From NCBI GenBank assembly GCA_027493025.1, contig JAPUDQ010000044.1, positions 1-34,051 on the forward strand: a stretch of 34,051 nucleotides of DNA. The letters run 5' to 3'. Shown here one piece after another: positions 16,856 to 18,435 of the stretch (within the stretch, counting starts at the first letter, position 1; each line of letters begins with the position of its first letter). A program made the position numbers and the translations under genes. The notes under the pieces are model-generated. The model searched no databases and had not been told where the DNA came from. It saw only the letters and a program-made list of their open reading frames with translations. The DNA is from Candidatus Saccharimonadota bacterium. Its GTDB lineage: Bacteria > Patescibacteriota > Saccharimonadia > Saccharimonadales > Saccharimonadaceae.

Positions 16856-17188
16856 ATGACATTTGATAAGTACCAACAAAAAGCCCTCAAAACACGTCTC
16901 ATGAAGGCAGACGATCCAAACCTCATGTATTATCTTGCGCTTGGCCTAACGGGCGAGGCTGGCGAAATAGCCAACAAGTTAAAGAAAATTATTCGAGATC
17001 ACGATGGTGATGGAGCGACTATTGATAAAGATGACATTAAAGGCGAGCTTGGCGACGTGCTATGGTACCTGGCAAATCTTGCCGACATCATTGGCATCAG
17101 CTTTGATGATGTCGCGACGTACAACGCCGAGAAACTTGCCAGTCGCAAAGAACGCGGTGTCCTAGGAGGCTCCGGCGACAACCGCTAA
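16856..17188 (+). CDS. MazG-like nucleotide pyrophosphohydrolase
   Basis: A 110-residue protein of the all-alpha NTP pyrophosphohydrolase superfamily. The metal-binding motifs EAGEIANKL (about 34-42) and ELGDVLWYLANL (about 63-74) are clear. The family removes pyrophosphate from (d)NTPs, which keeps unwanted nucleotides low. It is the single-domain short form rather than full-length MazG. It lies nine bases after thyA, preceded by AAGGAG, and its end overlaps the convergent folA end by three bases. Confidence 0.88.
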   Translation: MTFDKYQQKALKTRLMKADDPNLMYYLALGLTGEAGEIANKLKKIIRDHDGDGATIDKDDIKGELGDVLWYLANLADIIGISFDDVATYNAEKLASRKERGVLGGSGDNR

Positions 17189-17742
17189 GCGCGTGATTTC
17201 TTGCGTATATAGGTAACTTGATAGGATGGATAGGTGTTGTGTTTGCGCGACGAGGGAATATCATTTTCTTTGCCGACAGGCACAAACATATTCTCCGTTT
17301 TTTCCCATTCGGTTTCTGATAGCTCAGGAAATCGCGTATGCTCATCATGCGGCAGATCCGCATCAACTTCCGTCGCATAAATGATATCCACGTAGGGAAG
17401 GGCGCTGCGATAGACTTCACCACCGCCAATCACCAACGGATCGTGGCGCGCCATAGCTAGCGCCTCTTCGATCGAGTTAGCGACATCTACGTCTGGGATA
17501 GCAATCGATTCTTTCGGCCCGCGCGTTAACACAATCACTTGATCGATTTTTGGAAACGGCCGCTTTGTCAGATCAACCTGGTCGTTCAAGAGGGCTTTTC
17601 GTCCCGCAATAATCGTTCCGGCTGCCCGACTAAGCTCACGAAACCGCGCCATATCATGCGCCATTTCATACGGCCCCCATAAAAGTTCCGCACCTTTGCC
17701 GATACCACGGCTTCGTTCATAGGCCACAACCATACTAACCAT
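17185..17742 (-). CDS. folA: Dihydrofolate reductase
   Basis: A 185-residue DHFR that recycles the dihydrofolate made by ThyA. Visible motifs are GIGKGAELLWG (about 13-23, the Met20-loop region), the acidic Asp in EMAHDMARFREL, GTIIAGRKALL (NADPH loop) and VIGGGEVYRSALPYVD. It is on the opposite strand to the rest of the thymidylate block and converges tail to tail with the MazG gene. A perfect 16-base palindrome covers its -10 and the ATG lies six bases after TATACT, so it may be leaderless. An in-frame ATG three codons later (17733) is the alternative start. Confidence 0.92.
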   Translation of the reverse strand: MVSMVVAYERSRGIGKGAELLWGPYEMAHDMARFRELSRAAGTIIAGRKALLNDQVDLTKRPFPKIDQVIVLTRGPKESIAIPDVDVANSIEEALAMARHDPLVIGGGEVYRSALPYVDIIYATEVDADLPHDEHTRFPELSETEWEKTENMFVPVGKENDIPSSRKHNTYPSYQVTYIRKKSRA

Positions 17743-17744
17743 AC

Positions 17745-17760
17745 AGATAGTATACTATCT
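17745..17760. promoter_or_regulatory. Palindrome over the folA -10 element
   Basis: AGATAGTATACTATCT is a perfect 16-base palindrome. It contains TATACT in the folA direction (17754-17749), six bases before the folA ATG. It may simply be a symmetric -10 region, or an operator for a dimeric repressor. Confidence 0.5.
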
Positions 17761-17828
17761 ATCGCTGTCGCAACCGAAATTATCTAACTACTCTTTTTAA
17801 AATAACCTAAGTACCTTTAACCGCAAAA

Positions 17829-18154
17829 GCCTCCAAAACACCTCCCCTTACTTTTCGTCTTAGCAAAAACGTAACAAAAAAGCCAACTCCCTATCCTCTC
17901 TACCTCGATTCGTCTCGTTGTCAAACATCCGAATCAGCGATAGTCGGATGGGGGACGTTTGTAGCGAAACGGTTCGGGGCATCCGCAATCATCCAAAGAA
18001 GCGAAGGATATGGAAACAAGGAATCATACCTGAGATTCCTGGGATGATGAGGACAGCCCTGAGACACTATCACCCCACGAAACATGTTTCGTGGGGACCC
18101 CAACTTTGGTACTTTTGGTCACGAAAGTAGGGATACGGGTTTTGTTATTAAGGC
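17829..18154. repeat. Structured non-coding element, probably a dispersed repeat or MITE-like copy
   Basis: No convincing gene occurs here. The two ends are imperfect inverted copies: CCCTTACTTTTCGT on the left (from 17845) and CCCTACTTTCGTGACC on the right when reverse-complemented (from about 18132). Inside are several hairpins: CATCCGA/TCGGATG (17926-17950), ATCATCC/GGATGAT (17988-18048) enclosing AGGAATC/GATTCCT (18019-18040), and a perfect 24-base palindrome at 18073-18096. The GAAGCGAAGGAT segment resembles the core of palindromic repeats dispersed in many bacterial genomes. There is no transposase, so if mobile it would need help. Confidence 0.5.
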
Positions 18155-18215
18155 AAAAGAAGGATGAACTGTTATTTGAGATTAGTTATTGTCAATATTA
18201 TTGGAGGCGCAAGGA

Positions 18216-18244
18216 TTGTCAAAAACCACCAAATACACTATAAT
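18216..18244 (+). promoter_or_regulatory. Promoter of rplJ-rplL
   Basis: TTGTCA at 18216-18221, a 17-base spacer and a consensus TATAAT at 18239-18244. Transcription would start near 18251, at the 5' edge of the L10 leader. This is one of the best sigma70-type promoters in the window. Confidence 0.85.
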
Positions 18245-18254
18245 TACTGCTAGT

Positions 18255-18365
18255 CGTTACCAAAGACAGTAGCGCCCTATCAGGCGATAGCGGTTAAGAA
18301 TGCTACCGAGGCAACTCACGCTTTTATAAAGCATGTCTTTTGGCTACCGATGGTAGCTTTTTTGT
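18255..18365 (+). ncRNA. L10 leader (ribosomal protein autoregulation)
   Basis: The transcript upstream of rplJ carries the L10-leader pattern CCAAAGACAGTAGC ... TTAAGAATGCTACCGAGG, seen in many Gram-positive and CPR genomes, which binds the L10-(L12) complex. The strand TGCTACC at 18301-18307 can also pair with GGTAGC of the downstream terminator, giving a mutually exclusive antiterminator. The leader ends in that terminator. Confidence 0.85.
18343..18363 (+). terminator. Attenuator terminator of the L10 leader
   Basis: GCTACC - GAT - GGTAGC stem-loop followed by six T, located 70 bases before the rplJ start. It is the off-state of the leader switch. Confidence 0.85.
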
Positions 18366-18435
18366 AACGGACGAACCTTCACAATCCGGACACTTTTACT
18401 ACCCGTAACCGTTTTTAATAAAAGGAGTGCTCACT

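Follow-up and report, generated by a model that had tools for sequence, protein, structure and literature searches.

A probable MITE-like repeat between folA and rplJ of a Saccharibacteria genome carries terminal hairpins resembling those of intergenic repeats in other phyla

BOX elements of Streptococcus pneumoniae have conserved ends and inner modules that vary in number and choice, and we know of no description of their ends as pseudoknots. The element described here, set against them by description, likewise has conserved ends and variable inner modules. Bacterial MITEs, including RUP, NEMIS/Correia, bcr1 and QMITE, are short, non-coding, strongly folding dispersed repeats with terminal inverted repeats, which occupy A+T-rich intergenic sites and hold no transposase (PMC10969869), and our element resembles them in all these respects. 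It also shares with REP/REPIN sequences and their RAYT enzymes, and with the TIRtron/TIRYT systems (PMC3733652, PMC6006769), the combination of palindromic intergenic repeats with Y1 transposases in the same genome. The inverted-repeat families of TIRYTs, for which TIR families without coding capacity have been described (PMC3733652), are the nearest published analogue; since they were compared with the element by description, one of them may be identical to it. In IS200/IS605 derivatives, in contrast, the hairpins lie on the same strand, whereas the ends of our element are inverted copies of each other. No described family matching the element was found in the literature, by topic or by sequence string.

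In the window (the whole stretch of 34,051 nucleotides that was analysed), folA (17185-17742, minus strand) and rplJ (plus strand, start at 18427 or 18436) form a divergent pair. The gap ahead of rplJ, 693 nt long, is large beside the 252-nt median of relatives, in agreement with the preliminary description of this DNA, which had considered a non-coding insert of about 330 bases beside ribosomal genes unusual. The features of the insert, whose coordinates are accurate to about 5 nt, are as follows; C2, C4, C12, C27, C34 and C39 denote host contigs with related copies, and G382 a related genome.

17823-17829, no strand assigned: left direct repeat GCAAAAG, candidate target-site duplication, exact match to 18153-18159
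17830-18152, no strand assigned: whole element, taken as a MITE-like repeat copy from its dispersed copies and inverted ends; likeness to other copies begins at about 17834
17848-17874, plus strand: left-end hairpin TTACTTTTCG-loop-CGTAA, decayed in the window copy and perfect in C4, C12, C27 and C2
17875-17887, plus strand: A-rich linker CAAAAAA and GCCAAC, the would-be loop partner (five of six pairs in C4 and C27, four of six in the window copy)
17890-17954, plus strand: left internal arm CCCTATCC...GGATGGGGG, its whole helix replaced in copy C34
17971-18063, plus strand: core long stem GGTTCGGGGCATCCGCAATCATCC ... GGATGATGAGGACAGCCCTGAG enclosing GAAGCGAAGGAT, its tip swapped for CTATATCG/CGAGATAG in C12
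18065-18101, no strand assigned: module M3, CACTATCACCCCACGAAACATGTTTCGTGGGGACCCC, with the perfect 24-nt palindrome at 18073-18096; also in host copy C39 and in G382
18096-18129, minus strand: predicted right-end pseudoknot, read inwards as hairpin TACTTTCG-TGACC-AAAAGTA and linker CCAAAGTTGG, the loop GACC pairing with GGTC (18096-18099)
18153-18159, no strand assigned: right direct repeat GCAAAAG, candidate target-site duplication, exact match to 17823-17829

The element lies upstream of a promoter-like rplJ site (18216-18244; sigma-70-like, 11/12) and also of an L10-leader-like region (18242-18372; 34.7 bits against an Rfam cut-off of 44). The latter is a diverged ribosomal-protein leader; scores of 45-62 bits were obtained for the L10 leader in five related genomes. 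Situated upstream of the coding regions of folA and rplJ and of the rplJ promoter-like site, the insert is probably tolerated rather than used. Two short open reading frames within it matched no protein family.

The preliminary description had drawn attention to nested hairpins, a perfect 24-base palindrome and imperfectly inverted ends, and each of these was verified. Folded as RNA, the element reached -106.5 kcal/mol, against -85.8 +/- 4.7 kcal/mol for shuffled sequences (z = -4.4; 0/100 shuffles), and the opposite strand gave z = -3.2. The palindrome, CCCCACGAAACA/TGTTTCGTGGGG (18073-18096), has no loop, and the ends, CAAAACACCTCCCCTTACTTTTCG and, after reverse complementation, CAAAACCCGTATCCCTACTTTCG, are imperfectly inverted. 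Each end is built from one hairpin, (T)TACTTT..TTTG-loop-CAAA..AAAGTA, with an A-rich linker, and the two copies are inverted relative to each other: the left-end layout is TTACTTTTTG-loop-CAAAAAGTAA followed by CAAAAAAG, and the right end repeats this design inverted on the minus strand as TACTTTTG-ACCG-CAAAAGTACCAAAG. The interior is made of nested, exchangeable palindromic modules, M1 (..CTGCGGAACTCG..CAAACAGTCCTCG..), M2 and M3, each itself a nested palindrome and each present or absent independently of the others; M1 is deleted from the window copy at about 17918-17928, within the left internal arm.

The host genome (0.91 Mb in 45 contigs) is assigned to Saccharibacteria by its gene content and size. 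Related copies, mostly truncated, were found at six other places in it, on contigs C39, C4 (two pieces), C12, C2, C27 and C34. The element is therefore dispersed as well as short and non-coding, and it carries terminal inverted hairpins (imperfect in the window), which bears out the earlier suggestion of a MITE-like mobile copy or lineage repeat. Both ends are kept in the window and C12 copies, the remaining ones being truncated or lying at a contig end, so that most host copies miss one end. Module content varies from copy to copy: C4, C2 and C34 contain an internal AACTCG//CTCARACA module that the window copy has lost. Stems change with their complement kept (TTACTTTTTG/CAAAAAGTAA, TTACGTTTTG/CAAAACGTAA, TTTACCTTCTTTTG/CAAAAGAAGGTAAA), and helix sequence has been replaced with complementarity retained in the left hairpin (C12, C2), the arm (C34) and the tip of the core stem (C12). 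The genes adjoining the host copies are unrelated to one another, and no transposase was found within or beside these copies. As to target-site duplications, which had been named earlier as something to search for, the window copy has a candidate in the exact 7-nt GCAAAAG on both sides, for which we estimate a chance match in short flanks at roughly 5-10%; none is proven at any copy. No polymorphic or empty site for the element was seen, and at folA-rplJ itself the empty-site comparison met lost synteny, the nearest relatives being other genera without folA beside rplJ.

The core, M2 and left-arm sequences are known from the host genome alone. By sequence, the element family was absent from 60 relatives, except for the bare palindrome of M3 in two, G045 and G016; the core sequence was absent from 379 other genomes of the phylum, M2 was found in the host only, and a BLAST search of the whole element against plasmids returned nothing. 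Three other genera of the family nevertheless have divergent elements of the same architecture: G382 holds such an element, G639 and G359 hold related end-plus-module loci, and the matching end hairpin is present in all three. The exact core patterns (CAAAGAAGCGAAGGAT, GTTCGGGGCATCCGC and the core pair) failed as markers, their matches in the viral and genome collections being all coding or due to chance, and the earlier idea that the GAAGCGAAGGAT core recurs as a palindromic repeat of unrelated bacteria was not borne out. The features that do recur there are two that had not been singled out, the end hairpin and the AACTCG//CTCARACA module.

Within the viral collection, the M1 motif led to two contigs of non-coding proteobacterial DNA, in both of which the matching end hairpin stands a few tens of nt before the motif CTGCGGAACTCG..TCAGACAGTCCTCG; a combined right-end and module pattern had no match among viral contigs. 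The end TTACTTTCTTTG-loop-CAAAGAAAGTAACCAAAGAAA is present in at least six copies on Ilyobacter (Fusobacteriota) and on replicons of Variovorax, Comamonas, Chitinibacter, Caballeronia and Pseudoalteromonas, plasmids being among the proteobacterial sequences that carry it. Of 100 genomes from the order around a Hydrogenophaga genome, 7 have it too. The groups with an unannotated end hairpin and AACTCG//CTCARACA module are thus Betaproteobacteria, Gammaproteobacteria and Fusobacteriota; all the cross-phylum places with annotation are intergenic, and reversed-pattern controls gave zero matches. One Caballeronia replicon carries about ten complete elements, in which roughly 0.5 kb separates the paired inverted ends and the terminal inverted repeats measure about 90 nt. 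Across three phyla, the AACTCG//CTCARACA module is bounded by covarying outer stems (0/20000 swaps), and host copy C2 and an Ilyobacter end have in common the loop CCTTGATG, with its partner ATCAAG(G).

RNA H-type pseudoknots have an A-rich linker that crosses a stem. The end-hairpin loop and a segment behind the A-rich linker are complementary in 25 distinct ends from Proteobacteria and Fusobacteria, with loop and partner reading TCGCC/GGCGA in Variovorax, CGGGC/GCCCG in L219, GTGGC/GCCAC in L208, TTCCCC/GGGGAA in L207, GCTGC/GCAGC in Caballeronia and TGCC/GGCA or, at a right end, CCTTGAT/ATCAAGG in Ilyobacter. Over 25 distinct loops, the mean best duplex was 4.16, against 3.17 with downstream segments swapped (0/20000). 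In stem S2 of a gapless alignment of 25 distinct ends, 91% of cells were paired compared with 57.5% after shuffling, 27 cells showed double changes, and covariation was 0.777 against 0.19 (0/500 shuffles), counts that related sequences inflate and whose signal is carried by independent loops of distant taxa; sliding S2 by 1-3 columns lowered pairing to 18-48%. The first stem owes part of its conservation to the search pattern, of which the second stem is not part. Of the 91 paired S2 cells, 2 hold G-U pairs, and changes on one side only hardly occur. The covariation analysis proposed earlier thus returned covarying helices, and from sequence the proteobacterial and fusobacterial ends are predicted to form an H-type pseudoknot, which is weaker yet present in Saccharibacteria, where the stems are shorter, the pseudoknot pairing is weaker and the effect for these ends alone is smaller (45/20000 swaps, with loop limits set by eye). 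The window copy has the hairpin, the A-rich linker and the loop-complementary segment, weakly so at its decayed left end. No Rfam covariance model matched the end structure above cut-off.

A MITE-like element moved in trans is the reading suggested by the dispersal, the inverted ends, the absence of genes and the modular decay, and we consider it probable that the folA-rplJ element is a non-autonomous mobile repeat of this kind, with its folded ends as recognition sites. It differs from described MITEs in that its direct repeats are candidates only and no parental insertion sequence was found (Y1 was searched genome-wide), as well as in its covarying pseudoknot ends, its modular nest of palindromes and the related ends in at least three phyla; it is, in short, a repeat of an ordinary kind whose end structure is unusual, open to testing and shared across phyla. 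The strong folding, the covarying helices and the A-rich linker crossing a stem would also be expected of a functional structured RNA, cis-acting or small, kept in several copies and using the pseudoknot as a riboswitch-like or protective 5' element fold. Such an RNA accords poorly, however, with module content that differs among copies most of which miss an end in the host, with a fold at both ends on opposite strands, with unrelated neighbouring genes and with the lack of an Rfam match for the end structure, and the scarcity of G-U pairs and of one-sided changes in S2 would be unusual for RNA. The unrecognised structured RNA of the preliminary description therefore keeps the covarying helices in its favour, but folded DNA accounts no less well for the few G-U pairs and the inverted ends, and we hold this explanation to be quite improbable. 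S2 being nearly free of G-U pairs and the ends being mirror images, the data suggest that the fold acts in DNA; the loop complementarity could alternatively be kept by DNA-level repair of palindromes and not by selection.

The likeness of ends across phyla might instead reflect convergence of A+T-rich hairpins, which would make the host element a lineage-specific MITE only. The confinement of the core, M2 and left-arm sequences to the host genome and the shorter stems and weaker pseudoknot pairing of Saccharibacteria ends agree with this, but convergence would have to account for CTGCGGAACTCG..TCAGACAGTCCTCG following the matching end hairpin in both proteobacterial contigs, for the CCTTGATG loop common to C2 and Ilyobacter and for the empty reversed-pattern controls, and it seems unlikely to us. 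A further candidate is a REP/REPIN-like unit mobilised by the host's own RAYT. Host contig C30 does encode a RAYT-like Y1 transposase (L190:1291-1932) with its own inverted repeats, GGTTCACCCCTGAAAGGTGTTAA / TTAACACCTTTTAGGGGTGAACC, the elements are palindromic, intergenic and without transposase, and TIR families tied to RAYT-like TIRYT enzymes have been described (PMC3733652). The repeats flanking this gene, GGTTCACCCCT..AAGGTGTTAA, are nevertheless unlike the element ends, on which ground we rejected the host Y1 as mobiliser and regard the link to a RAYT-like enzyme as weak. The element also measures about 320 nt (about 320-500 nt with nested modules) against 20-40 nt for REPs; no GTAG/CGTC-tagged unit of 20-40 nt was seen, its ends yielded no match to the GGGGWSAS motif known from TIRYT repeats, and G639 has a related, element-like locus and no Y1 match. 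Mobilisation of a REP-like unit by the host RAYT is accordingly very unlikely. The genome-wide transposase search in the host covered the Y1 family only. In each of three related genomes, a palindrome of its own flanks the Y1 gene.

Y1 transposases are a type of enzyme that handles folded single strands. For the MITE-like element moved in trans, we propose that the ends would fold when extruded or exposed as single strands and would then be recognised in trans by a transposase or another DNA-processing enzyme, for which the candidate would be an HUH/Y1 enzyme of RAYT/TIRYT type, the best one present in the host. This enzyme would excise the element or copy it into A+T-rich intergenic sites, and palindromic modules would then insert preferentially into existing hairpin loops, giving rise to the nested structure. 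Much more tentatively, these repeats might represent an undescribed class of bacterial mobile element spanning Patescibacteria, Fusobacteriota and Pseudomonadota, with inverted ends needing a DNA pseudoknot for recognition, a putative trans-acting enzyme and growth by nested palindrome insertion into hairpin loops. If so, one class, marked by a defined end structure that can be tested, would take in many unannotated intergenic repeats of distant bacteria. That structure would also provide a specific pattern for hunting the mobilising enzyme, and among the recognition signals of mobile DNA a covarying pseudoknot at inverted ends would be unusual.

Four further observations concern sequences at or near these repeats. 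The outermost shell of the Caballeronia element (L222:825-911 and 1403-1542) resembles Rfam RF02421 Bp1_684, a predicted Burkholderia small RNA, at 35.2 bits, below the cut-off of 44; the model covers neither the conserved end pseudoknot nor the Saccharibacteria element, and the Bp1_684 family may, judging by this similarity, be part of a mobile repeat. On host contig C4 (15801-16984), a right-end piece and a left-end piece flank a HicA/HicB-like toxin-antitoxin gene pair, as identified by eye. In G045, the palindrome CCCCAC.AAACA..TGTTT.GTGGGGACCCC directly adjoins apparent tRNA genes at two places (L088 and L089), at one of which it is ringed by partial tRNA-like repeats. Finally, a perfect 16-nt palindrome, AGATAGTATACTATCT, lies just upstream of folA in the window (17745-17760) and is a possible operator.
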